A stretch of DNA of 64,000 bases from Chlorobiota bacterium (lineage in GTDB: Bacteria; Bacteroidota; Ignavibacteria; Kapaibacteriales; UBA961), in NCBI GenBank assembly GCA_014191195.1, contig BJGZ01000001.1:186001-250000 (forward strand). Direction: 5' to 3'. Under the pieces are notes generated by a model. The model saw only the letters and a program-made list of their open reading frames with translations. It made no database searches and had not been told where the DNA came from. Made by a program: the position numbers and the translations under genes. Below are positions 22,793 to 57,571 of the stretch, piece by piece (position 1 is the stretch's first letter; each line of letters starts with the position of its first letter).

Positions 22793-23756
22793 AAAAAAGA
22801 AATCACACAGCAGAAAACCAAGTGTAACTATAAAAAGTGAAATTAGAGATTATGATTATCATCAACCTGTTTTATTAAAAGAATGTGTAGATGCATTAAT
22901 GAATTGTGGTGATAATAGTTTGTATATAGATGGCACTTTAGGTGGTGGTGGGCATACGACAGAAATTCTTTCCAGATTATCATCAAGGGGAAGAGTTTAT
23001 TCATTTGATGCAGATCCAGATGCAATTGTACACTGCAATCAAAAATTTTCCGAAGAATTATCAAAAGAACAAGATTCCCGATTAATTCTTGTGAATAAAA
23101 ACTTTGTAGAAGCATCTACATTAACATATCCAGAACAAGGAGTTTCTGGAATGTTATTGGATTTGGGTGTTTCTTCAAGACAATTAGATATTGGACAAAG
23201 AGGAATCAGTTATAGATTTAATACTAAGCTTGATATGCGTTTTGGGACAGATGGAATATCAGCCGAAGAATTATTAAATAAAAGTGAGGAGGGTACACTC
23301 CACCATATTCTGCGAAGTTTCGGGGAAGAACCTTTCGCAAGAATTATCGCACGACGGCTTGTTGAGCGCCGTCGTGCGGCTCCTCTAAAATCAACTGCAG
23401 ATTTACGCTATATTATTGAAGAATGTGTCCCACCACATATGGCTAGTAAAAGCTTAGCAAGAGTATTTCAGGCAATAAGAATTGCAGTTAATAATGAAAT
23501 AGAAGTTTTAGAACAAACTATTAAGAATATAATACCATTATTAAATAAAGGTGGAAGAATTGTTGTTCTCTCTTATCATTCCCTTGAAGATAGAGTAGTG
23601 AAGCAAGTATTTAAAGATAGTGCAAAAAAATCTGATGAAAATCCTGATCCTCAATTACACATACTGACCCCTAAACCACTTGAGCCATCAGAACAAGAAA
23701 TAGGATGGAATCCACGTTCAAGAAGTGCAAAGTTAAGAATTGCCGAAAAAATCTAA
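22785..23756 (+). CDS. rsmH: 16S rRNA m4C1402 methyltransferase
   Basis: RsmH (MraW) N4-methylates C1402 of 16S rRNA in the ribosomal P site using SAM. The 323-residue protein shows HQPVLLKECVDAL, the SAM loop IDGTLGGGGHTTEIL, LLDLGVSSRQLD, FRGISYRF-like GQRGISYRF, ARVFQAIRIAVNNE and VLSYHSLEDRVVK. A lysine/serine-rich N-terminal extension of about 20 residues precedes the fold. It overlaps mraZ by eight bases. No ftsL, ftsI or mur genes follow. Instead, a secreted T9SS protein starts 92 bases later. Confidence 0.96.
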   Translation: MSKKKKSHSRKPSVTIKSEIRDYDYHQPVLLKECVDALMNCGDNSLYIDGTLGGGGHTTEILSRLSSRGRVYSFDADPDAIVHCNQKFSEELSKEQDSRLILVNKNFVEASTLTYPEQGVSGMLLDLGVSSRQLDIGQRGISYRFNTKLDMRFGTDGISAEELLNKSEEGTLHHILRSFGEEPFARIIARRLVERRRAAPLKSTADLRYIIEECVPPHMASKSLARVFQAIRIAVNNEIEVLEQTIKNIIPLLNKGGRIVVLSYHSLEDRVVKQVFKDSAKKSDENPDPQLHILTPKPLEPSEQEIGWNPRSRSAKLRIAEKI

Positions 23757-23848
23757 TCTTAGCACTTAATCTGCCTATAACTACTTTTGAATTTGGTATA
23801 TTTACAAAAAAAACCGCATCTGTAATTTATTTACTTAAGAATATTAAT

Positions 23849-26065
23849 ATGAAATCTCTTTCTACGCTGTCTATATTGATAGTACTATCATTATTAGTGA
23901 ACATAAACAATGTGTTCTCCTATGAAGAAAAAACATTAAAAGAAATTACTACAGTTTCTACAGATTCATTGATTGCAAAATCATTGCTTTCTGCATATTA
24001 TGGAGATACACTGGTAGTAAAAGGGGTGGTTGGAGTATCAGTATTAGTGAATGTTTCTAAAGGAGATAGACGTCCAATTATGTTAACAGGGGGAAGTTGG
24101 ACAACATATCTTCAGACAGAAGCCACAGTATCGGAAAGCCAAAAAGCTGGAATTTTAATGTTTCAAAGAGACACTTTAATAAAGAATTCAGGTTTTGATA
24201 AATTACAGACGGGAGATTTGATTGAAGCTACAGTAGTTGTAGGAAGTTTGCCATATAAATTTGATGCTACAAATCAAACCAAAATCAGTGCTCCTGCATT
24301 AGAATTATTATCTATAATTCCAGTTAAAGTATTAGCTTCAAAACAGACATTAAACCCTGCGATTAAAACCAATATTTCTAAATTTTATAAAGGAAATAAA
24401 GTTCAAAATCCATTATTAGAAACTGGATCTGGTTTTATTGGGCAAAAAGTGATCTTTGATTCTTTAACAGTTACAGCTACTTCTCCTCAGATCATCGTAA
24501 GAGATAATCAAAATAATAGTATCGTAATGAATGAACAAAGTGGATATTATACTACAAAAAGTCACTTTATTGAGGAATCTGAATTTAGACCATTATCTAT
24601 TGGACAAAAAATCTATAAAATGGAAGGGTATATTAGTTCATTGTTTGTTGCAGGCAGTGGTGGTGGTGGATTTGGAAATGGTAGTGGTAGTGCATTATAC
24701 ACATATACTATTTCACCGGCATTACCAGGAGATCTTAATTCTGGGCCAAAACCATCTCAATTATCGGTTGTAAGGGTGCAACCAGCTAAGTTATTTCCAA
24801 GTTCTTCGGATATAGTTTCTGTTATCTTCGAGATATTACCAGGTGCTAATTTTGTTCCTATCGGAAATATATTTTTAGAGTATTCAATTGATGATGGTAA
24901 AACATATAACAAAATACCTGCAGAAGAAGATATTACAGGAAATTACTTAGGAAAAATCCCTGCTCAAAGTGCTGGAACAATTGTGTATTATATGTTAACT
25001 GCAACTGATGAAGTTGGGGAAACATATAAGGGCCCAGTTAATGGAGTTTATTATTTTAAAGTAGTAGATCAATTTCCTTCAATTGCAGATATACGCCGTC
25101 CAGATACTATAGAAGCCATACGAATTATAAGTGGCTCTAGTGTTACGATAGAAGCTACGGTTATGAGTGATACAAATGATATTTTTGGTGATGGTTTCCA
25201 AAACCCTTCAAGAATAATATTACAAGATGGTACTGCACCATGGAGTGGTGCAGCAATATTTAGAATGGGAAATAATGATTCTCCTGTTTGGAAATTAAAA
25301 AGTGGCGAAAAGGTAAGATTAACAGCAAAATTGCAAGAATTTGGTGGAAGTTTATATTTTCAGTCGGTTGATACTGTTATTACTTTAGGAAAAACTGAAT
25401 TATATGCACCAGTTGCATTATCAACAGCTGAATTTGGAACTAATCCTGGTGGTACAGAGAAATCTGATCAATGGAGAAATATGCTGGTGGAATTTAATAA
25501 TGTTGAAGTTGGTAAATTAGAGCCATCTTCGCCACAGTCAACTGGAGAATTTTTAATAGTAGATGAAGCATTAAAAGCTACTCCAGAGGCATCAATAAGA
25601 TTGGAAACAGATGAAAGTAAGCTAACATATACTACTAGAGATAGCATTGTTTCTATTTCAAAACGAGTAAAACCTACAATTGGAGAAAAAATTAGCTTCG
25701 TTAGAGGAATTATAAATGCAGATTTTAGAACAAGAAGATATAAACTGATTCCTAGAAATGATCGCGATTTTAGTATAGTAACTGATATTAAAACGGGTGA
25801 TGCTGATATTCCTCAATTGTTTGTTTATCCAAATCCTGTGAAAGACAAAGCATGTATAGATATTAATATCGAAAAGGAATCTTTGGTATCTATAGATATA
25901 ATTTCAACAATAACAGGTAATAAAATTACTTCTACAAAAGAGTATCTTTCTGCTGGTATATTTACTCTACAGATTAATACCTCAGAGCTAAGCAGCGGTT
26001 CTTACATAATTTCAATAATATCTGATACTCAAACACAAACACTTCCTTTAGTGATAAATAAATAA
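23849..26065 (+). CDS. Secreted T9SS-sorted protein with OB-like domains
   Basis: An exported 738-residue protein. I chose ATG 23849 because it opens a clean signal peptide, MKSLSTLSILIVLSLLVN, ending near residue 24. The open frame extends upstream only into rsmH sequence. The central part reads as beta-rich repeats, including a segment near 440-520 with SSVTIEATVMSDTN and LQDGTAPWSGAAIF that resembles OB-fold nucleic-acid-binding modules of secreted Bacteroidota proteins. The last 80 residues (VYPNPVKDKACIDI...SGSYIISIISDTQTQ) form a type A T9SS sorting domain. It is likely to be exported by T9SS and attached to or released from the surface. The substrate is unknown. Confidence 0.8.
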   Translation: MKSLSTLSILIVLSLLVNINNVFSYEEKTLKEITTVSTDSLIAKSLLSAYYGDTLVVKGVVGVSVLVNVSKGDRRPIMLTGGSWTTYLQTEATVSESQKAGILMFQRDTLIKNSGFDKLQTGDLIEATVVVGSLPYKFDATNQTKISAPALELLSIIPVKVLASKQTLNPAIKTNISKFYKGNKVQNPLLETGSGFIGQKVIFDSLTVTATSPQIIVRDNQNNSIVMNEQSGYYTTKSHFIEESEFRPLSIGQKIYKMEGYISSLFVAGSGGGGFGNGSGSALYTYTISPALPGDLNSGPKPSQLSVVRVQPAKLFPSSSDIVSVIFEILPGANFVPIGNIFLEYSIDDGKTYNKIPAEEDITGNYLGKIPAQSAGTIVYYMLTATDEVGETYKGPVNGVYYFKVVDQFPSIADIRRPDTIEAIRIISGSSVTIEATVMSDTNDIFGDGFQNPSRIILQDGTAPWSGAAIFRMGNNDSPVWKLKSGEKVRLTAKLQEFGGSLYFQSVDTVITLGKTELYAPVALSTAEFGTNPGGTEKSDQWRNMLVEFNNVEVGKLEPSSPQSTGEFLIVDEALKATPEASIRLETDESKLTYTTRDSIVSISKRVKPTIGEKISFVRGIINADFRTRRYKLIPRNDRDFSIVTDIKTGDADIPQLFVYPNPVKDKACIDINIEKESLVSIDIISTITGNKITSTKEYLSAGIFTLQINTSELSSGSYIISIISDTQTQTLPLVINK

Positions 26066-30112: not shown

Positions 30113-33100
30113 ATGAATTGCAGCCCTTTTGGCACTTTGTGCAGAATATACTATTCAAGTATATTATTGCTCTTTTTTATTGCTTCATGTACTATTACAG
30201 AGGCATATAATCTTGTACAAAGTAAGAGTACTGCCTCTGGTATATATAGGGGTATTGTCCTAAATTCAGGACAATACCCTTCTTTTATTTATGGTTATAC
30301 CTCTAATAACAATACATCCTTATGGTTTACTAAGCATGGATTAATGTTTGATATCCATCACTCTATTATATCTGAAGTTTCAGGAAAACAGAGTGAAAAA
30401 AAATATGCTGTTTCACTAGTATTTACTGATAATAATGGTAATGACATTGTTAATGATATACAGGATATTCATCAAGTTGGAACAATTCAAGCATGTAAAC
30501 AAACAAGAGAAGCTTCAGAAATTGCTGTATGTGATGATATAACATTGAAATTTCCTTCTTTAGGAATGAACTTTAAGTATATCAACAATTCTCTATCATG
30601 GATAATACATACCCCTTCCATTAATGATTCCTTGCCAAATATCTCTCTTTATGGTGCAGATTCTGTTCATTATGAAAAGGAATTATCAAGAATTACTATC
30701 CATACAGGTGGTATAAAAACTCATATAGCAGTTCCAAAACTATTTGTGAATGATAGGCATGATTATATGCCATTGATACTCAATAAAACTGATTCACATT
30801 CTTTTTCATTATCAATTGATTTACAGAATAAAAAAGAGCAAAAACTTATTATCTCATTGGAGTATGCCATATTAATTGGCGGATCAGAAAATGAATCTGC
30901 AAATGCAATAGCTTTAGATACAAGTAGAAATATATATATCACAGGTGAAACAACATCTAAAGATTTTCCAGTTTCAATCGGGGCATATATTACGCCATTT
31001 AAGGGTGCTAGAGATATTTTTATTGCTAAATATGATTCAACTGGACAAAAACAAATCTTTGCTTTAGTGATTGGTGGTTCTGCTTTTGACCAAGCATATG
31101 CAATTGCTGTAGACTTAGAAGGTAATTCACATATTACGGGTACAACAAGTTCTTCGGATTTTCCTACTACTATTGATGCTATATCAGAAAAAGGTGGATT
31201 TGGCGATGATGATGCATTCTTTCTAAAAATAAGCAAAGATGGAAAACAATTATTGTATTCTACATTTTTAACAGGAAATTCTGATGATGTAGGCAGAAGC
31301 ATTGCAGTTGATTACAAAGGTGATGTTTTTCTAACAGGATCTACAGGGGCAATACAGAATAAACCACATACATTCCTTAAAACAAAAAATGCATTCGATA
31401 CATCTTATAATGGCGGAGCATTAGATGGATTTATCGCTAAAATTCGTCCTATTGGAAATGGCATCAATGATTTGGTGTATGCTACATTGATTGGAGGTAA
31501 TGGTAATGATACTCCGCATAGTATTTCTATAGATTCTAAAGGAAATGCATATATAGCTGGTGAAACAAATTCTCAGGCCTTTCCAGTTACTCCTTTTTCC
31601 TTAAGACAATTGCCAGGTGGCGGGTCAGATGGTTTTGTTGCAAAAATGAGCCCTTTGGGTGATTCTTTATTGTATAGCACTTTATTGGCTGGTTCTGCTG
31701 ATGACAGAGCTTTAAGCATTGTATATGATGAAGTACTAAATACAATGTTTGTATCAGGTTCAACGGCTTCAGATGGAACTTTGTCTTTGGATAAGAATAT
31801 AGTGCCATTCCCATTTCCTACTACCCCAAATAGTTTTGATACATCGTATAATGGTGGGTTAACAGATGGTTTTATCATGAAGATAAAGCCAGATATTACA
31901 GATCAAAATCAGATAAAGTTTTCTTCTTTTATTGGTGGTAAAGGAGAAGATATTGTCCATTCTATTTGTGTGGATGTATGCTCTGCAGTATATATTACTG
32001 GTTCAACCACTTCATCGGATTTCCCATTTACTGATGATGCATTTGATAAAAGCTGTATAAATCAAGAAAGTTTTATAGCAAAATTAGGAGCACTTGGTAA
32101 TATTCTTGTATTCTCTAGTTTTTATGGTGGAAGTTTAGATGATGCTGGAGCTGGCATTACAGTAGATAAAACTGGAGCTGTATATGTTTCGGGTTATTCT
32201 GAATCTAAAGATTTACCAGAAATCAATGCCAATCTTTCAAGTAAGAGAGATGCATTTATCATAAAGGCTCAAGTTGGGATATTACCTTTAAGGCCAGAAA
32301 TAAAAACAAGTGGTGCTGTAAAATTCTGCATAGGTGGAAGTGTACTCTTAGACGCAAAGTCAAACAATTTTGTATCATATCAATGGCGAAAAGATAGAGA
32401 GATTATATCTGGTGCAAATACAGCAACATATATTGCTAATCAAAAAGGAATATACACTGTAGATGTAATGGATGCAAGTGGATGTACGGGATCTGAAAAG
32501 ATAGAAGTAACAGTTTTCGAGTCTCCTTTAATACAGATTGCATCAAAAGAAAGGGTGATATGTCCGGGTGACACTATTCCTTTAAGAATAACATCTAAAG
32601 ATTCAATTATAGCTGTAAAATGGTTTTCTGATGCTGTGTTATCTTGTGATACTTGTAATGAGATATTAGTTCAACCAAGTACAACAACAAAATATTATAT
32701 CACTGTTACCGATACAAATCGATGTACAAATACAGATTCATTAATAGTATATGTATTAGATTCTAATTCGTTAATTGTTAATCAGTTACAAGATACTTTG
32801 GCTATTTGTCCAGGGGACTCTATTTGGGCTTATATTCCTATTGTAAATAATGAAGATGTTCCATTACAGATGAAAATTTTGTCAAATGTAGATCCTTTGT
32901 TTTCTATTCTGCAAGATTCATTGATAGTAAATGGCAAAGACACTGTACTATTTCCAGTGCATTTTAAAGGAAGTGTAAATCAACAGTATTATTCATATAC
33001 AGTTCAGTTTGTAAATCAATGTTCGATTATAAAAAATAGTACATTTACTGTTTCTGTAGAAAGCCCTCAACTACAGATAAAAGCAATTTCAGATACGTCT

Positions 33101-34045
33101 ATATGCCAGCTTGATGCTTCAAGAAGATATATTACAGTAAAAAATAATAGCAGAGTATCTTCGGTATTATCTATTAATGGAGGCGCAAATAGATTTATAA
33201 TTAATCCTCCTACCCAAACAATTTATCCAAAAGATAGTGTTGAATTTATTGTAGATTTTGCTGGAGATACAACTGGCACCTATACTGTGTCTTATTCTTT
33301 ATTAAACTCTTGCGGTGGCAAAGATTCTATAGGAATAACAGTAAATGTTATAGGAAATCCAATGATAGTTAGTTTGCATCAATCTGATACAAATGCTGCT
33401 ATTACTGGACAAAATATCATTCAATTTGTAGAAATAGATACTATTAACTTATTCAATAATTCAACTAATAAAACGGTAACATTTACTCTATATCCAGAAA
33501 AAACGTCTCTACATTTAGATTCAGTTCTCTCTTCTTCTTGTGATGTTTCTGTGATAAAATCTATAGACTCATTTATTATTACCTTAACAAATTGCAAAGG
33601 CATCATCAATCCGCTTGCAGAGCTTCATTATCGCTCTGTTATTGGGGCTACGCTAAAGCCAGAAGTAAGAATAACTAATGTATTCGCAGCAGATAGATGT
33701 ATATCAGCTTATCCGGGCAAGATTGATACAATTTTATTGCTTCCTTATGGATGTGAATTATCAACCTTGAATATTTATTCTATGGTATCTACTTTATATT
33801 CAGTAGAAAGAAATCCATTACAAGAGCAAATTTCCATACAATATTCAACAGTAGAGCAAGTGCCGGTTGAATTTATAGTGTATTCAATGTTAGGAGAGCA
33901 AATTCAGCATATTCAATTGCCTTATCATAAACCAGGAGTATATCAAGTTCAGATTCAGTCCGATAATTTAGTGTCTGGAACATATATACTTCTTTATAAA
34001 GCAGGACAATATGCAGATTCACGTATCATCACAATTCAACGATGA
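30113..34045 (+). CDS. SBBP beta-propeller surface protein with T9SS tail
   Basis: A 1310-residue exported protein. The N-terminal hydrophobic segment ends in FIASC, a possible lipobox. Residues about 250-710 contain seven SBBP-type repeats, each with a pattern like (Y/F)ST(F/L)(I/L)GG..DD...I.VD..G..Y(I/V)(T/S)G.T.S.DFP. Seven repeats suit a seven-bladed propeller. After that come Ig/PKD-like domains (WRKDREIISGANTATYIANQKG and VICPGDTIPLRIT) and beta-sandwich repeats. The final 85 residues (RNPLQEQISIQYS...SGTYILLYKAGQ) look like a T9SS sorting domain. The gene directly precedes a double-OmpA protein with a ten-base gap. It is probably a surface adhesin or structural protein. Confidence 0.8.
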   Translation: MNCSPFGTLCRIYYSSILLLFFIASCTITEAYNLVQSKSTASGIYRGIVLNSGQYPSFIYGYTSNNNTSLWFTKHGLMFDIHHSIISEVSGKQSEKKYAVSLVFTDNNGNDIVNDIQDIHQVGTIQACKQTREASEIAVCDDITLKFPSLGMNFKYINNSLSWIIHTPSINDSLPNISLYGADSVHYEKELSRITIHTGGIKTHIAVPKLFVNDRHDYMPLILNKTDSHSFSLSIDLQNKKEQKLIISLEYAILIGGSENESANAIALDTSRNIYITGETTSKDFPVSIGAYITPFKGARDIFIAKYDSTGQKQIFALVIGGSAFDQAYAIAVDLEGNSHITGTTSSSDFPTTIDAISEKGGFGDDDAFFLKISKDGKQLLYSTFLTGNSDDVGRSIAVDYKGDVFLTGSTGAIQNKPHTFLKTKNAFDTSYNGGALDGFIAKIRPIGNGINDLVYATLIGGNGNDTPHSISIDSKGNAYIAGETNSQAFPVTPFSLRQLPGGGSDGFVAKMSPLGDSLLYSTLLAGSADDRALSIVYDEVLNTMFVSGSTASDGTLSLDKNIVPFPFPTTPNSFDTSYNGGLTDGFIMKIKPDITDQNQIKFSSFIGGKGEDIVHSICVDVCSAVYITGSTTSSDFPFTDDAFDKSCINQESFIAKLGALGNILVFSSFYGGSLDDAGAGITVDKTGAVYVSGYSESKDLPEINANLSSKRDAFIIKAQVGILPLRPEIKTSGAVKFCIGGSVLLDAKSNNFVSYQWRKDREIISGANTATYIANQKGIYTVDVMDASGCTGSEKIEVTVFESPLIQIASKERVICPGDTIPLRITSKDSIIAVKWFSDAVLSCDTCNEILVQPSTTTKYYITVTDTNRCTNTDSLIVYVLDSNSLIVNQLQDTLAICPGDSIWAYIPIVNNEDVPLQMKILSNVDPLFSILQDSLIVNGKDTVLFPVHFKGSVNQQYYSYTVQFVNQCSIIKNSTFTVSVESPQLQIKAISDTSICQLDASRRYITVKNNSRVSSVLSINGGANRFIINPPTQTIYPKDSVEFIVDFAGDTTGTYTVSYSLLNSCGGKDSIGITVNVIGNPMIVSLHQSDTNAAITGQNIIQFVEIDTINLFNNSTNKTVTFTLYPEKTSLHLDSVLSSSCDVSVIKSIDSFIITLTNCKGIINPLAELHYRSVIGATLKPEVRITNVFAADRCISAYPGKIDTILLLPYGCELSTLNIYSMVSTLYSVERNPLQEQISIQYSTVEQVPVEFIVYSMLGEQIQHIQLPYHKPGVYQVQIQSDNLVSGTYILLYKAGQYADSRIITIQR

Positions 34046-34055
34046 AGGTGATTAT

Positions 34056-36224
34056 ATGTACATGATAATAAGAATATTCCTTTCTTTTTTATTGCATGCT
34101 TGTTTATCGATATATATGCATCCATATATATTAGCCCAGGAAGAATCAGATGCAAAAACATCACTACCTATATGGTATGGATTCGGATTACAAGGAATGT
34201 ATGTACATCATAATACCGATGGAAATTTGCAATGCTTGAATGATCCAGCATGTCCTTCTTTTAATAGTGGATCAGGTTTTGGATTAGGACCACTTTTATC
34301 GATTGAATGGATGAAAAATAATTGGGGACTATTAAGTACTTTATCGTATAATATGGCAAATGGGAACTTAGAAATAGAAGATAGAAGAGCACTAACTGTA
34401 AATGAATTAGGACAAATTGTACCATTAGTTAGAAATCATTCTTTAACAATGCAAGTACATAATATTACCAGTAATATCGCTCTTCAAATGAAAACTGGAG
34501 ATATAAGAATATATGCAGGAACGAATATTGGCTTTTTAATTAATCCACATTGGACAGCATCTTCATCATTAATTTCACCATCGAATATTACATTCCCATC
34601 AGGTAAAAGAGATACAATATTTGTTAATGAACAAACCATTCAAAATCATAATCCAATACAATTTGGAACGATAGTAGGTATTGGCTATGATGTCACATTA
34701 AAAGAAAAAGTAAAAATATCACCAGAATTAACATATACCCTACCATTTAGTTCAATGATAAGTTCATCAGATTGGAAGCAATCTTCTTTAGCATTGTCGG
34801 TTTCAATAAGATGGGGTAAAGAATCAAAAAAAGATGAAGAATTCAAAAAAGATATATTTATAGATACCATAGAAGTAAAAAGGCCTGAATTCATAGGAAA
34901 AAGAATAGTGAAAGGATCTACTCTTCAATCTTTAGAGATATCCGAAACTTCTTCTGCTATCATAACCACAGAAATTATTAAAAGAACAGATACTTTGATC
35001 ATTGGAAGTTTACCACCTGCATCCGCAAAACCACCTACAGTGAATCTATTAGCTTATGCACCGCAAGATTCTGTATTGCAACAGGTAAAAGCTATTACCT
35101 TGCAAGGACAATTTGTCACAGAAGGATTTCCAATTTTGCCATTGGTGTTTTTCAAACCACATTCTTCCGAATTAGCAGAACGATATCATCAATTAGAATC
35201 TTCTGAAGGATTTAGATCTGATAGTTTAGAACCAAATTCGATACTTCAGCATAAAGACATCTTGAATATCATCGGAGAGAGATTATCGAAAAATGCAAAA
35301 GCTACGATAAATCTGTCTAGTATGTCCGATCCGATTACAGAAAAATCTGATTGTGATTTAGCATTGCAAAGAGCACAGACAGTAAAGCAATATTTAGAGA
35401 ATATATGGTTGATTGATCAATCAAGAATTACAATTAATCCTATGGGAAAGAATTGTATGCCAGAATCACCTACACAATCAAAAACAGAAGCAGGATTTGA
35501 AGAAAATAGAAGGGTAGAAATATATTCAGATGATGATATTATACTTAATCCTGTAGTTAGAACAAGGTATATACAGTTGACAGATTATTCTCCCAAAATC
35601 ATACACTTGCATCCAGAAGGAAGTACAAATACAGGGATAAATACATGGCAACTACATGCAGAATATGGAGATAATGAAATTCTTGATACAAATGGATTAG
35701 GAATTGCTCCTATTGTAGACTATTCTTTAGAACCCAATATTGCCACATTGATGAATTCAGGAGAACCATCAAAATTTCAAGCGTCTTTAACACTGCAAGA
35801 TAGAAAAGGATTATCTAATACTCGTGTTTTAGAAATTCCTATTAATAGAGATACCACAAATTATGCTGTACAACGTTTATCTTTAATGCATTTTGGAGTG
35901 TTAAAATCAACATTGAATGAGGCAGCTAAAGCATCAATAAGTAAATTTATAAGCAATTTAGAACAAGATGCCACCATTAGTATCGTAGGGTATTCCGATA
36001 ATCTTGGAAATCCAATAACTAATAATAGACTGTCAAAATCAAGAGCAAAAACAGTTAGTGATTTTATTAGAAAAATGAGACCCAATTCCAATATTGTGCA
36101 AATTGATGGAGTTGGATTTTCTAAACTTCCTCCAGGTATACTATCTCACGAATTACCGGAAAGTAGATTTTTAAGTAGAACAGTTCAAATTGAAATCATC
36201 AGAAGCTGGAAAAATTCCGAGTAA
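34056..36224 (+). CDS. Outer-membrane protein with two OmpA-like domains
   Basis: A 722-residue exported protein. I chose ATG 34056 because AAGGTG sits about six bases before it, overlapping the stop region of the SBBP gene. The longer frame begins inside that gene. A signal peptide (MIIRIFLSFLLHACLSIYMH) ends around YILAQ. Residues 30-250 read as outer-membrane beta strands. A middle OmpA-like unit has FFKPHSSELAERY, LALQRAQTVKQYL and EENRRVEIYSDD. The C-terminal one has GYSDNLGNPITNNRLSKSRAKTV and SRFLSRTVQIEI. The OmpA fold binds peptidoglycan, so this protein may anchor the propeller protein encoded just upstream. That pairing is inferred from operon context. Confidence 0.82.
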   Translation: MYMIIRIFLSFLLHACLSIYMHPYILAQEESDAKTSLPIWYGFGLQGMYVHHNTDGNLQCLNDPACPSFNSGSGFGLGPLLSIEWMKNNWGLLSTLSYNMANGNLEIEDRRALTVNELGQIVPLVRNHSLTMQVHNITSNIALQMKTGDIRIYAGTNIGFLINPHWTASSSLISPSNITFPSGKRDTIFVNEQTIQNHNPIQFGTIVGIGYDVTLKEKVKISPELTYTLPFSSMISSSDWKQSSLALSVSIRWGKESKKDEEFKKDIFIDTIEVKRPEFIGKRIVKGSTLQSLEISETSSAIITTEIIKRTDTLIIGSLPPASAKPPTVNLLAYAPQDSVLQQVKAITLQGQFVTEGFPILPLVFFKPHSSELAERYHQLESSEGFRSDSLEPNSILQHKDILNIIGERLSKNAKATINLSSMSDPITEKSDCDLALQRAQTVKQYLENIWLIDQSRITINPMGKNCMPESPTQSKTEAGFEENRRVEIYSDDDIILNPVVRTRYIQLTDYSPKIIHLHPEGSTNTGINTWQLHAEYGDNEILDTNGLGIAPIVDYSLEPNIATLMNSGEPSKFQASLTLQDRKGLSNTRVLEIPINRDTTNYAVQRLSLMHFGVLKSTLNEAAKASISKFISNLEQDATISIVGYSDNLGNPITNNRLSKSRAKTVSDFIRKMRPNSNIVQIDGVGFSKLPPGILSHELPESRFLSRTVQIEIIRSWKNSE

Positions 36225-36233
36225 AACTAATAT

Positions 36234-37283
36234 ATGAATGAAACTCCTATACGTTTAACACAATATAGTCATGGCGCAGGTTGTGGATGTAAAATATCGC
36301 CATCTGTTCTAGATATTATTTTATCAACAAATGAAGCAAAACCTGATAGTAAAAATTTGCTTGTAGGTAATAGTTCTAGAGATGATGCTGCCGTATATGA
36401 TTTAGGAAATGGAATGGCATTAATCAGTACTACTGATTTTTTTATGCCAATTGTAGATGATCCATACGAATTTGGAAAGATAGCATCTGCAAATGCAATA
36501 AGTGATATCTATGCAATGGGTGGAAAACCAAGCTTGGCAATTGCAATTTTAGGATGGCCAATCAATACTTTGTCACCAGAAATAGCAAGAAAAGTAATTG
36601 AGGGCAGTAGAGAAATTTGTAAAGAAGCTGGAATTCCTTTGGCAGGAGGACATAGCATAGATTCACCAGAACCAATTTTTGGATTGGCAGTTAATGGATT
36701 AGTTGAAATAACTAGATTAAAACAAAATAGTACAGCACAATTAGGGGATATTCTGTTTTTAACAAAACCATTGGGTATAGGAATTTATACTACTGCAGAA
36801 AAAAAAGGAATATTAAAGACAGACCATAGAGGATTAGCAGCTAAACAGATGATGCAATTAAATAAAATTGGTGAAGAATTATCTAGTATTTCACAAGTTC
36901 ATGCTATGACTGATATAACAGGTTTTGGATTATTAGGACATCTTTCTGAAATGTGCACAGGTAGTAATTTGTCTGCACATTTAGATTTTACTTCTATCCC
37001 ATTAATGTCAGATTTAGAATGGTACGTTGAACAAGATTCTATTCCTGGAGGTACTCATAGAAATTGGAATAGTTATGGAGATACAATAGCACCACTCACA
37101 GATTTTCAAAAAGTAGTTCTTGCAGACCCCCAAACAAGTGGTGGATTATTGATTTCTGTTTCTCCATCTGCCCAAAATGAAGTAAAAGAATTATTTCAAA
37201 AGAATTTTCCATCAGTATCGATGCAATCAATAGGATATATGGAGCAGAAAGGTCTATTTACAGTTAGGGTATCTAATGGATGA
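36234..37283 (+). CDS. selD: Selenide, water dikinase (Cys form)
   Basis: Makes selenophosphate from selenide and ATP for selenocysteine or selenouridine synthesis. The 349-residue protein opens with [17 protein letters not shown], placing catalytic Cys17, Cys19 and Lys20 exactly as in E. coli SelD. Residue 17 is encoded by TGT, not by a Sec [24 protein letters not shown] and the ATP-binding [18 protein letters not shown] also match. No selA, selB, selC or selU lies in the window. The 3' end overlaps lepB by eight bases, and the gene starts ten bases after the OmpA gene, so a run-on operon is likely. Confidence 0.95.
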
Positions 37284-37926
37284 TCAAAAACAACAATTGT
37301 TTGAATGGAAAGATGTGTATTGGGGTATCACAATAGCATTGCTTTTTGCATGTATTATACGGCTTAGCTTTGCAGAACTATATAATGTTCCATCTGAGTC
37401 TATGAAACCTACATTGCAAAAAGAAGATATGATTGTAGTAAGTAAAATGGCTTTCTCTTTTGGTATTTCAGGGGAAATTTTAGGCATTACAATTCCACAG
37501 AACTTAAGAATTACATGGAATACACCTAAAAAAAATGATATAATTGTTTTTAAAGCTCCTGCAATAGCTTTGAAAGATTTTCCACCTATATCAGAAACAG
37601 TATATTTCGTAAAAAGAATAGGATATGGTCCTGGAGATATTAATCCAATAAATAATCAGATTATCCCATATAAAGGAATGAAGCTAGACAAGAATGATCT
37701 TGTTTGGAAGCAATTTATTGTTGATGATAGTAAACAAGAATTACAATTATTGATGAATAAAGAATATATCGTTCAGCATAATTACTATTATGTGCTTGGT
37801 GATAATTCTGAGCAAAGTTTTGATTCTAGGTTTTGGGGTCTTATACAAGAAGAATCAATAATGGGAAAGCCAATTATCATCTGTTGGTCGAAAAATACTT
37901 CTAGAATAGGATATTTTATAAAGTAG
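37276..37926 (+). CDS. lepB: Signal peptidase I
   Basis: The inner-membrane serine protease that removes signal peptides from exported proteins. One membrane helix at about residues 14-33 precedes the catalytic part. Ser42 in [11 protein letters not shown] is the nucleophile and Lys113 in [12 protein letters not shown] the general base. [16 protein letters not shown] is the conserved box E. The 216-residue length is compact. The gene overlaps selD by eight bases and is followed 14 bases later by the beta-CASP nuclease gene. The many signal-peptide proteins in this window would be among its substrates. Confidence 0.93.
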
Positions 37927-49692: not shown

Positions 49693-50271
49693 ATGTTTTC
49701 ATTATTACTAAAAACAGGTAAAGGCATAGTATTAGCAATTGTATTAGCAGTTTCCTGCTTTGCGACAGTTAATGCACAAGGCCCAAAAGTAAATTGGCAT
49801 GTTATTGCTAGCGGTGGAGCTTTAAATATTGTTAGTGGACAATATTTGATTTCTGCAACGATTGGCCAGCCTATTGTTGGCAATATTAGTATTGGTGGAT
49901 ATCGTCATTTTATTGGATTTTGGGGCCCTCAAGCTATAAAAGAAGAAATAACCGGTGTTAATGAATATGTATCTACCGGCGAAAATTCTTTATTATCCAA
50001 TTATCCTAATCCATTCTCATTGCAAACAACAATTTCATATCAGGTTCCACAATCTGGTTTATTGTCGATAAGAATTATGGATATGGTTGGTAGAGAAGTT
50101 AGAAGTATGATTTCGAATGAATTTAGAGAAGCTGGTAGCCATAATGTAATGTGGGATGGAAAAGACAATGTTGGTTCTGATTTACAATCAGGAAATTTCA
50201 TATGTGAAATGTCTTTCTCACAACATGGTGAATCAGTTAAATCTCGTATACCATTGATATTAGTTAAATAA
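49693..50271 (+). CDS. Small T9SS-sorted surface protein
   Basis: A 192-residue exported protein. The signal peptide runs to about residue 28 (VLAVSCFATVNAQ). The short mature N-terminus has SGGALNIVSGQYLISATIGQPIVGNISIGGYRHFIGFWG. This is the SGG...Y.L..TIGQP..G...GGY...GFW pattern common in FCB-group secreted proteins. The last 90 residues (LSNYPNPFSLQTTISYQVPQ...GNFICEMSFSQHG) are a complete T9SS type A/FlgD-like sorting domain. The cargo part is so small that it may be little more than a surface tag. A terminator-free 47-base gap, with an AAT/AAT-rich run, leads to the next gene. Confidence 0.85.
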   Translation: MFSLLLKTGKGIVLAIVLAVSCFATVNAQGPKVNWHVIASGGALNIVSGQYLISATIGQPIVGNISIGGYRHFIGFWGPQAIKEEITGVNEYVSTGENSLLSNYPNPFSLQTTISYQVPQSGLLSIRIMDMVGREVRSMISNEFREAGSHNVMWDGKDNVGSDLQSGNFICEMSFSQHGESVKSRIPLILVK

Positions 50272-54749: not shown

Positions 54750-57491
54750 TTATCTTTGAATAATGATTGGTAAACCAAATGATTTACCATTATGAAGATT
54801 CACAATAGCAATATAGGAACCTGGTATTGTATGATGAATATCAATAGCGCAAGTAGTAGACTGGTTTTGAATATTATGTTTTGCGATAGTTTCACCCAAA
54901 ACATTTATTAATCGTACAGAATGAATTGCTTGTGCAGATTGAATTTCAAGAATTTCATTAGCTGGATTTGGGAATGCTGAAATTCCAGAAAACATATCGA
55001 ATTCACTAATACTTGATGGTGAAGCATATGTTGCAGATAAAGGAATAGTAAATACTTGTGAAGCATTAGAAGATTGAGAAATTTTTACAAGTAATTCAGC
55101 ATTATAAGTTCCATCTTGATTAGTAGCAAAGCTAAGTAATACTTCTTTGCATATACCTGGCTGAATAGATAATGGTAAAGCGGGAGGATTAGATAAAGTA
55201 AAAGTTGAAGATCCATTAATAGACAACTCAGTAACAGAAGCAGATCTTGTTCCAGTATTGCAAATCTTGATTAATGTATCTTTTTTGTTTACAGCTATTT
55301 TTCCTAAAATTATTGGAGTAGTAGCAATATCTTCAAAGCAACTTGTACCAGATATATTTATAAGGCCTGGAGCAGTAACCGAATTACTTGCAAAAGCAAT
55401 TGAAGCATTATTTGTAATCTCTGATTTAGGAGAGAATTCTAAGCCCAATGCTTTTGTTTCATTAGCTGCAAGTATAAAAGGGGCTTTTCCTGAAATTATA
55501 GAATAATTATTAGCTGCGGGGCCACTTAGTGTAATCGCAGTAATATTTAATTCTTCATTACTTGTATTTGTTATAAGAGCAGAAATTACAGTATCCTTTG
55601 TTGTTCCTTTATTAATACAACCAAAATCAATAGTTCTTGTAGAAAGAGTTAATGTTGGTCCTTTAGAGGCAGGTTTAACGCTTAAAAAGGTTTTTGAACT
55701 AGTAACTGTTCCACATGAATTTGTAATGATACATTCATACGACCCACTATCAGCAAATTGCGTAGCTACTATGGTATATCTATCGCTAGTAGCATTATTG
55801 ATATCTTTTCCATCTTTTTTCCATTTATAGCCAAGATTTGATCCTAATGCTATAATGCGAAGTGATGTCTCTGTATTAACTATTACTGTAGTATCGGCCA
55901 TATTTCTTGCTATTAGAGGCTTTGATAAAACAATAAGCTTTATAGATCTTTCATTGCCTGATTCAGCACATTGGTTCTTAGCAGAAACCGTATATACACC
56001 TGAGTCAGCGCTTGCAATACTATTTATAGTGAAAGAAGAATCAGTATTTGGGAGTAGATTTCCATTCTTTTTCCATATATACCCAGAAATAATAGCACCA
56101 GTACCTTGAGCAAATAATTGAAGTTTATTGCCAATGCATAAAGATGAGTCATTCCCAGTAAAATTAGATGCTGTAATAGGAATTTGAACCATTTGTACTG
56201 TAGCTGCATTAGATGTAACCGCTGGAGAACATATGCCTGTAACAACACAGTCATATTGTCCTGCATCATTTGCAGTCATAGATGAAATAGTATAAGCTGC
56301 TTTATTACCATTGGGTATAGCAGTACCATTTTTTCGCCATGCATATGATAGAGTAGTGCCAGTAGCAGAAACATTTAAGGTAACTTGAGAGCCAAAACAG
56401 GCATTTGAAGAGCTGGGATGGCTAGAAATAGCAGGGCTTTGAGCAATAAATACAAGAGTAGCTTCGCTAGTAAGATTTGTACATCCATTTAATTCAACAC
56501 TGTATTGTCCTGAAGCCCCAATTTGTGCATTAGTTATAGTATATGTTCTTGAATTTGCCCCTGATATTGGACTTGACCCCTTATACCATTTATATGTTAA
56601 AAATGGATCTTCTTTATCAGGCATCACACTTAATGTAATATTTCCACCAATACATGTTGTATCAAAAGCTTTAGGTTGTGTAGCAATAATCGGTGTAGGT
56701 AGAACTGAAATATTCGCATCATTGGTGTCTGAAACAGCGCCATTAATCACTCTAAAACGGTAATTATTACCATAGGTTGCATTTGCAGGAACTGTCCATT
56801 GAAAATTAGTAACATTTGCAGGAACAGATCCAATTTGTGCCCAAGGTAATGTTCCTGTTGGCGACATTTCAATGGTAGTTGTTCCGCTTAATCCATTGGC
56901 TGTCCATAGAATATCAAGTGGGGAATTTCTGCAATATTTAGCTACATTATTTTGAGAATTAATGACGATAGAAGCGCTGGCTTGAACATTTATGGTTATG
57001 CTAGACATTACATTCCAAAAATCACCCGTGTCACCACCATTATTATTTACTGCATTCCCGGCTGCTCTTAATGTATATACACCTGGTATAGCAGGCGCTG
57101 TCCAAGTAAATATATATTCGGTTTCACCACCAGTAATTGCAACAGGTGCTGAATGTGTTAATTCATTATTGGAGCTTACACAATTAGTCAAATTGGAAAA
57201 AGATCCTGCATTATTGTTACTACTATTTTTTACTGCAATATTTACACCTGATTTTGGCATACTTGCATGTGCAACTATAACCTTAAATGTTTTGGATTCA
57301 CCTGTTGATAGGGAAAAAGGGCCATTGCCTTCTCTTAAAAAAACGGATGTTGTGGTACTTGAACCACCATGACATCCACCACAACCATTGATAGAACTTC
57401 CTGTTTTCCCACCACTAGATGCAATGATGGGGCTTATATTAATGAGTGTAGCCACACATATCACAAAAAAAGTAAAAAGTATATTAGCCAT
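54750..57491 (-). CDS. Large Ig-like T9SS surface protein with CxxCH motif
   Basis: A 913-residue exported protein. ATG 57491 is preferred because the reverse strand has ATCAGGAGCT just upstream; the longer frame adds 16 residues before it. The signal peptide MANILFTFFVICVATLIN is followed near residues 37-41 by CGGCHGG, a CxxCH haem-type motif. Together with the following beta domain this resembles the choice-of-anchor V/Reeler-like class. Several Ig-like domains follow (KWYKGSSPISGANSRTYTI, AWRKNGTAIPNGNKAAYTI, KWKKDGKDINNATSDRYTI), then a choice-of-anchor D-like region (IDFGCINKGTTKDTV). The last 80 residues are a T9SS sorting domain (AFPNPANEILEI...LPIIIQR). Role: probable surface or extracellular binding protein. 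Confidence 0.82.
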   Translation of the reverse strand: MANILFTFFVICVATLINISPIIASSGGKTGSSINGCGGCHGGSSTTTSVFLREGNGPFSLSTGESKTFKVIVAHASMPKSGVNIAVKNSSNNNAGSFSNLTNCVSSNNELTHSAPVAITGGETEYIFTWTAPAIPGVYTLRAAGNAVNNNGGDTGDFWNVMSSITINVQASASIVINSQNNVAKYCRNSPLDILWTANGLSGTTTIEMSPTGTLPWAQIGSVPANVTNFQWTVPANATYGNNYRFRVINGAVSDTNDANISVLPTPIIATQPKAFDTTCIGGNITLSVMPDKEDPFLTYKWYKGSSPISGANSRTYTITNAQIGASGQYSVELNGCTNLTSEATLVFIAQSPAISSHPSSSNACFGSQVTLNVSATGTTLSYAWRKNGTAIPNGNKAAYTISSMTANDAGQYDCVVTGICSPAVTSNAATVQMVQIPITASNFTGNDSSLCIGNKLQLFAQGTGAIISGYIWKKNGNLLPNTDSSFTINSIASADSGVYTVSAKNQCAESGNERSIKLIVLSKPLIARNMADTTVIVNTETSLRIIALGSNLGYKWKKDGKDINNATSDRYTIVATQFADSGSYECIITNSCGTVTSSKTFLSVKPASKGPTLTLSTRTIDFGCINKGTTKDTVISALITNTSNEELNITAITLSGPAANNYSIISGKAPFILAANETKALGLEFSPKSEITNNASIAFASNSVTAPGLINISGTSCFEDIATTPIILGKIAVNKKDTLIKICNTGTRSASVTELSINGSSTFTLSNPPALPLSIQPGICKEVLLSFATNQDGTYNAELLVKISQSSNASQVFTIPLSATYASPSSISEFDMFSGISAFPNPANEILEIQSAQAIHSVRLINVLGETIAKHNIQNQSTTCAIDIHHTIPGSYIAIVNLHNGKSFGLPIIIQR

Positions 57492-57571
57492 AATAGCTCC
57501 TGATATATTAAACAAATGTTTTAAACAAAGTACATTCAAAAATAAGGGAATTGATTGAGTAGTTAATATAA

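Follow-up and report, generated by a model that had tools for sequence, protein, structure and literature searches.

Systematic sequence analysis of a 64,000-nucleotide stretch of DNA from a Chlorobiota bacterium of the order Kapaibacteriales (contig BJGZ01000001.1, positions 186,001 to 250,000; hereafter the window) draws attention to two adjacent genes, one for a protein with an SBBP-type beta-propeller (gene 1) and one for an outer-membrane barrel with two OmpA domains (gene 2). We lean, with some reserve, towards the reading that they form a cognate cargo-anchor pair of the type IX secretion system (T9SS), namely a surface propeller protein and its outer-membrane and cell-wall partner. The gene 1 product would be exported by Sec and T9SS as a surface protein made up of the propeller, Ig-like domains, a module preceding the C-terminal sorting domain (CTD) and the CTD itself. 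The gene 2 product would be the outer-membrane partner, with an 8-stranded barrel and a periplasmic tail of two OmpA domains, of which the second keeps its peptidoglycan-binding residues intact. Extracellular loop 1 of the barrel would receive the C-terminal module of the cargo, possibly with a disulfide link between the two, and the partner would tie the cargo to the wall. The pair is a local and somewhat worn example of a wider arrangement in Kapaibacteria, in which a T9SS cargo gene directly precedes a gene of the barrel and double-OmpA type.

The propeller protein and the barrel with two OmpA domains

The stop codon of gene 1 (TGA, 34043-34045) and the ATG of gene 2 at 34056 are separated by a spacer of 10 bases, with the ribosome-binding site of the latter lying over the stop, as a first-pass annotation of the window had described. 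That annotation had also counted exactly seven SBBP repeats and predicted that they close a single propeller. Pfam recovers six SBBP (PF06739) stretches in the gene 1 protein (total E 3.5e-36), the seventh is plain in the consensus of a 28-sequence alignment of homologues, and the AlphaFold2 model has 28 strands arranged as seven 4-stranded blades of one closed propeller, in which an N-terminal strand completes the last blade alongside three C-terminal strands; both predictions are thus upheld. Its closest solved fold in a Foldseek search is CylK (7fh6; E 5e-24, 18% identity). Behind the propeller are two Ig-like domains, one of them an Ig_7 domain, which had both been overlooked. The N-terminus is hydrophobic, as judged from the sequence by eye. 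Lipoprotein anchoring was considered and rejected, the lipobox-like IASC at residues 23-26 not being conserved in orthologues. An SBBP propeller is also common to the lipoprotein LipL53, but the gene 1 protein reaches 104 bits against the LipL53 model NF047494, whose cut-off is 400, and differs from it as a probable T9SS cargo for which lipoprotein status is not shown.

The CTD of gene 1 scores 20 bits with PF18962 (E 8e-4; curated cut-off 27), 23.3 bits in a second scan, and 17.4 bits with TIGR04183 (cut-off 23); it matches type A models and not type B. It is weak by Pfam but collinear with strong sorting domains, and is supported by orthologues and by a local sorting-domain profile, which was built in four rounds, was stable at 127-130 matches and gives it 70 bits with the domain itself in the training set. 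The genome encodes SprA (877 bits) and PorU (799.5 bits), and has 96 sorting-domain matches at E<=0.05. Given the CTD and these components, gene 1 most probably encodes a T9SS cargo; the earlier view of a secreted propeller is supported, although the sorting domain, the translocon and the sortase had gone unnoticed. PorP/SprF is found over the cut-off in 0 of 41 genomes of the order, with two weak matches, and no type B CTD (TIGR04131) exceeds the cut-off in the window's own genome, where the one weak match (18 bits) is not the window cargo.

Gene 2 had been described as encoding two OmpA-type wall-binding domains and a barrel, and this is confirmed by Pfam (OMP_b-brl_2 at residues 70-235 and two OmpA stretches), by Foldseek, which besides barrels also matches the periplasmic domains of OprF/OmpA, and by an AlphaFold2 model (mean predicted local distance difference test (pLDDT) score 89) that runs from the barrel through a beta domain, OmpA domain 1 and a second beta domain to OmpA domain 2. 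The first OmpA domain retains R439 and is otherwise looser. In the second, D648, N656 and R663 are invariant across 60 aligned sequences, with the same spacing as D576/N584/R591, the peptidoglycan-binding residues reported for PorE (PMC7192894). Loop 1 of the barrel is predicted to be extracellular on account of the topology of an 8-stranded barrel with a periplasmic C-terminal domain. The nearest named relative, a Candidatus Kapaibacterium contig, shows 92% identity across the OmpA protein. The protein has no match to the PorP/SprF family TIGR03519 at E<=0.1, and scores 20 bits against the PorE model NF052230 (cut-off 600), with no PorE architecture in the domain scan or the model.

Gene order, shared module and paired cysteines in Kapaibacteria

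We collected 111 distinct genes resembling gene 2 (products of 550-1000 aa that match that of the window in blastp at E<1e-15), drawn from the same genome, genus, family and order. The upstream neighbour is in view for 107 of them, and is co-directional within 150 bp for 85. By the local profile, a sorting domain is present in 51 of these 85 close upstream neighbours, as against 32 of 449 co-directional background pairs (Fisher p 8e-27, kinship ignored), whereas the downstream side is not enriched (8/69 versus 36/449; Fisher p 0.35, kinship likewise ignored). Pfam on its own identifies Por_Secre_tail in 35 of the 57 paired cargos. When pairing is scored with a gap limit of 300 bp (58 paired, 49 not, 4 unknown) and mapped on a tree of all 111 genes, the paired state needs at least 20 changes, and is hence not one inherited event. 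The window's own genome has 10 double-OmpA genes, four of which adjoin a CTD gene, in two cases on the upstream and in two on the downstream side. With cargos unrelated to one another, the same arrangement is seen in nine of the ten sampled families of the order and in one family outside it (genome G217).

The paired cargos are varied, and include SBBP and WD40 propellers, IgGFc-binding, FGE-sulfatase-like and HYDIN-type Ig proteins. Grouping them by full-length similarity failed, all families merging through common domains; clustering without the CTD gave 72 groups, 25 with a paired member, a rough figure as many upstream genes are cut by the 2.6-kb fetch. A pairing peculiar to SBBP proteins is rejected, SBBP cargos making up only 9 of the 85 close upstream neighbours. 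Of the two-part surface system envisaged in the first-pass annotation, the secreted propeller with a barrel and wall-binding partner is supported. Two side observations concern these cargos: WD40-type propellers occur on bacterial T9SS cargos at loci L083 and L165, upstream of orthologues or relatives of the window OmpA gene; and a TP[TS] motif lies near the C-terminus of 30 of 57 OmpA-paired sorting domains and 2 of 73 others, a post hoc comparison that is a lead only.

The SBBP-OmpA adjacency itself is local to the genus. The two genes adjoin in all six assessable genomes (G000, G001, G003-G006; in G002 the contig breaks off inside the SBBP gene), and the whole block TM245-SBBP-OmpA-selD-lepB-MBL-pepP is kept, as far as the contigs reach, in G001, G003, G005 and G006, and in G004 on the OmpA side. 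Elsewhere in the family (genera g2-g4, G007-G013) an OmpA orthologue (40-46%) is found in 7/7 genomes, never behind the SBBP gene, and has carA as its upstream neighbour in two (L071, L074); the SBBP orthologue is found in 6/7, with the OmpA gene never next to it where the following gene is in view. Non-adjacency in relatives, which the original annotation named as refuting its reading, is what the other genera show (0/7), and adjacency is what the genus shows (6/6). In family f2 the OmpA orthologues sit behind T9SS cargos; a scan of one of these cargos, at L083, revealed a WD40 propeller.

Most paired cargos have in common a cohesin-like stretch ahead of the sorting domain that ends in ICxxGGxRL with a conserved Cys; weak Pfam Cohesin matches are seen in L096 and L165. 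A profile of this module, seeded on paired cargos with the CTD excluded, matches 51 of the 56 paired cargos; among other CTD genes it matches 18 of 71, and among all other genes 1 of 771, training members being included in these figures. Several of the 18 are also beside OmpA genes, and the lone match among other genes is upstream of one. A hidden Markov model (HMM) trained without SBBP cargos and without iteration matches the SBBP cargos of other families (L099, L100, L216; 77-81 bits), and gives 15.5 bits to L067, an orthologue of the window cargo. In a profile-profile comparison the corresponding stretch of the window family aligns to the module over 138 columns (E 7e-5, probability 63%), and the window cargo probably, if not firmly, carries the module in a divergent form.

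In the reverse direction, 99 genomes of the order were searched with an alignment of module and CTD from 41 cargos. Of the matches listed, 30 given loci were inspected, along with 40 of 63 additional ones that lie in genomes new to the analysis. In the held-out genomes, 31 of 50 assessable module cargos directly precede a barrel and double-OmpA gene, and one more cargo is cut off by the end of its contig; all 19 cargos from the earlier genomes do so, as expected from training. Among the followers of other kinds, of which four were scanned, are hisS and genes for surface proteins, one of them a VWA protein. As an observation in its own right, one OmpA clade (L097 8695-15480; L156, L181, L191) has a module-bearing cargo of 1244-1557 aa directly downstream of the OmpA gene. 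Across 148 genomes of the phylum and among the matches listed, the full-length module is found only in the order and in G217, from another family of the class, with a partial module in G172 and only the CTD part matched elsewhere. The full barrel and double-OmpA protein is found in 6/6 genomes of the order and, at full length, in none of 93 others (cut-off E<=1e-30, with the 11 best candidates of each genome scored). Genome G217 lies outside that sample and has the cargo-OmpA pair.

The typical loop 1 of the barrel reads H.ADF..LPG.PSCCP.F, and the presence of Cys in it is linked to that in the cargo stretch. Among 58 pairs, 44 have Cys in both, 11 in neither and 2 are discordant, L200 being masked, so that 55 of 57 informative pairs agree. 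The two discordant pairs, L190 and L205, are both from genome G022; one is a CC barrel beside a Cys-less cargo and the other a Cys-less barrel beside a Cys cargo, and the partners might be crossed. Another 32 pairs, made up of 31 from the held-out genomes and that of G217, all agree, 31 with Cys in both and one with neither, which gives 87/89 overall. Genome background is not the cause of this agreement, since G020, G022, G032 and G062 each hold matched pairs of both kinds. The Cys is the sole one in the last 215 residues of 43 of 75 Cys-plus cargos.

Competing explanations and known systems

The step from gene order and paired cysteines to physical contact is one that we infer, and that to a disulfide is longer still. 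Several observations weigh against a cognate pair. In the window, the CTD of the cargo scores under the Pfam cut-off, the TP[TS] motif is missing from it, and the HMM trained without SBBP cargos does not match the protein, which in four other members of the genus with the whole cargo gene ends in E, not K/R. With four Cys among its last 215 residues, the cargo could equally well form an internal bond. Outside the genus but within the family, the two orthologues are not linked (adjacent in 0/7 genomes). More widely, a CTD cargo is missing upstream of 49 of the 107 OmpA genes, and no OmpA gene adjoins 19 of the 50 held-out module cargos. Moreover, each Cys trait changes only about four times on the tree, which leaves 3-4 independent comparisons, and a sign test of independent pairs cannot reach 0.05.

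An alternative that we hold to be unlikely, yet deserving of serious weight, is that gene 1 encodes an ordinary type A cargo, exported via SprA/PorV and attached to lipopolysaccharide by PorU, with the OmpA gene a mere operon neighbour that stabilises the envelope. The presence of PorU, the match of the CTD to type A and not type B models, and the cargo orthologues of g2-g4, which manage without an adjacent OmpA gene, all accord with it; however, it does not predict the upstream CTD enrichment (51/85 versus 32/449), the common pre-CTD module or the linked cysteines. Improbable, in our estimate, is that the barrel serves not as an anchor but as a shuttle dedicated to export, which, like PorV, would collect the cargo from the SprA channel and subsequently release it. 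PorV and PorP-like barrels are proposed as cargo collectors in PMC9143113, and another barrel could fill this role in an order lacking PorP/SprF over the cut-off, but the same source describes PorV and PorP as 14-stranded FadL-type barrels, as against 8 strands here, and two OmpA domains, one with conserved wall-binding residues, better suit a static anchor. Unrearranged synteny of the genus without any functional link fits the conserved block and the abundance of both OmpA and SBBP genes in these genomes, but is very improbable in view of the recurrence of the order with unrelated cargos across families.

Under the cognate-pair reading, the system would function like SprB-SprF and PorE but be built from other parts. 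Type B CTD cargos are described as being held by PorP/SprF barrels that are tied to the wall by PorE (PMC9143113), and the claim in the first-pass annotation that such a system was undescribed holds only in part, as cognate cargo-barrel pairs are known from these cargos. Because the order lacks PorP/SprF and the window's genome lacks type B CTDs, over the cut-offs, we propose that, for some of the T9SS cargos, the barrel and double-OmpA proteins unite the tasks of PorP and PorE in a single chain. As in SprB-SprF and PG1035-PorP, a T9SS cargo is encoded beside, or bound by, its own outer-membrane barrel, which presumably holds it at the surface; the window CTD, in contrast, is of the type A kind, and the barrel is 8-stranded and OmpA-like, with two OmpA domains and unmatched by PorP models. 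PorE likewise links outer membrane and peptidoglycan through an OmpA_C domain with the same three wall-binding residues, but combines TPR, propeller and CRD in one periplasmic lipoprotein, whereas in the window pair a protein of its own, exported, bears the propeller, and barrel and wall-binding part form one fusion. OmpA/OprF also combine an 8-stranded barrel with an OmpA_C domain, but lack the second OmpA domain, the two extra beta domains, the conserved loop 1 Cys and the link to T9SS cargos.

The paired cysteines have a recent parallel in the disulfide coupling of the SprF and PorG barrels to GldK and the T9SS track (PMC12635249), which likewise involves a twin-Cys motif in a T9SS-related barrel protein; there the Cys is in the C-tail of SprF and the bond to GldK is inside, whereas that of the gene 2 barrel is predicted to be outside, facing the cargo. 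A bolder version, which we offer as a tentative possibility, is that Kapaibacteria have a distinct branch of T9SS display, in which a cohesin-like Cys module of unrelated passengers is disulfide-locked to the outer loop of a peptidoglycan-bolted barrel, a sortase-independent covalent anchor whose partners are swapped and whose Cys pairs are gained and lost together. A literature search, with most subscription papers outside it, returned nothing on Kapabacteria OmpA proteins, on a Kapaibacter secretion system, on OmpA-family genes downstream of type IX CTD genes or on cohesin-type T9SS cargo modules; on type IX secretion in Kapabacteria it gave a CAZyme survey. A cargo module with a cognate barrel-wall anchor would bear on the sorting and surface retention of T9SS cargos in lineages without PorP/SprF and, if true, would assign a function to the roughly ten orphan double-OmpA genes of each genome (10 in the window's own), in a branch of the phylum with hardly any experimental work.

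Feature coordinates and neighbouring genes

Features of the gene pair, in positions of the window
Feature	Position (strand)	Residues	Basis or remark
SBBP propeller protein, probable T9SS cargo (gene 1)	30113..34045 (+)	1310 aa	
Seven-bladed beta-propeller	30857..32272 (+)	about 249-720	AlphaFold2, pLDDT mostly >85
Ig_7 domain	32546..32737 (+)	812-875	Pfam PF19081 (E 5e-9), two stretches
Pre-CTD module, probable, divergent	33338..33808 (+)		Profile-profile match; Cys1214 in YGCELS at 33752-33754
T9SS C-terminal sorting domain	33812..34042 (+)	1234-1310	PF18962 and local profile
Ribosome-binding site AAGGTG	34045..34050 (+)		Sequence; overlaps cargo gene stop codon
Barrel and double OmpA protein (gene 2)	34056..36224 (+)	722 aa	
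8-stranded outer-membrane barrel	34170..34820 (+)	39-255	AlphaFold2; Foldseek matches NspA, OmpX and OmpA barrels
Barrel loop 1	34230..34259 (+)	59-68	Cys60 and Cys66
OmpA domain 1	35151..35531 (+)	366-492	
OmpA domain 2	35853..36206 (+)	600-717	D648/N656/R663 trio

Downstream of the OmpA gene are selD and a lepB-like gene (36234-37926), at 9 bases and overlapping, respectively, in an order that is constant genus-wide; the surface pair may thus share a transcript with genes for selenophosphate synthetase and signal peptidase. Elsewhere in the window, the gene at 23705-26065 encodes a 786-aa T9SS sorting-domain protein (PF18962 E 5e-9) between rsmH and rpe, a position kept across the genus as far as contigs reach, and the C-termini of the products of two further genes, at 49693-50271 and 54750-57539, match the local T9SS sorting-domain profile.

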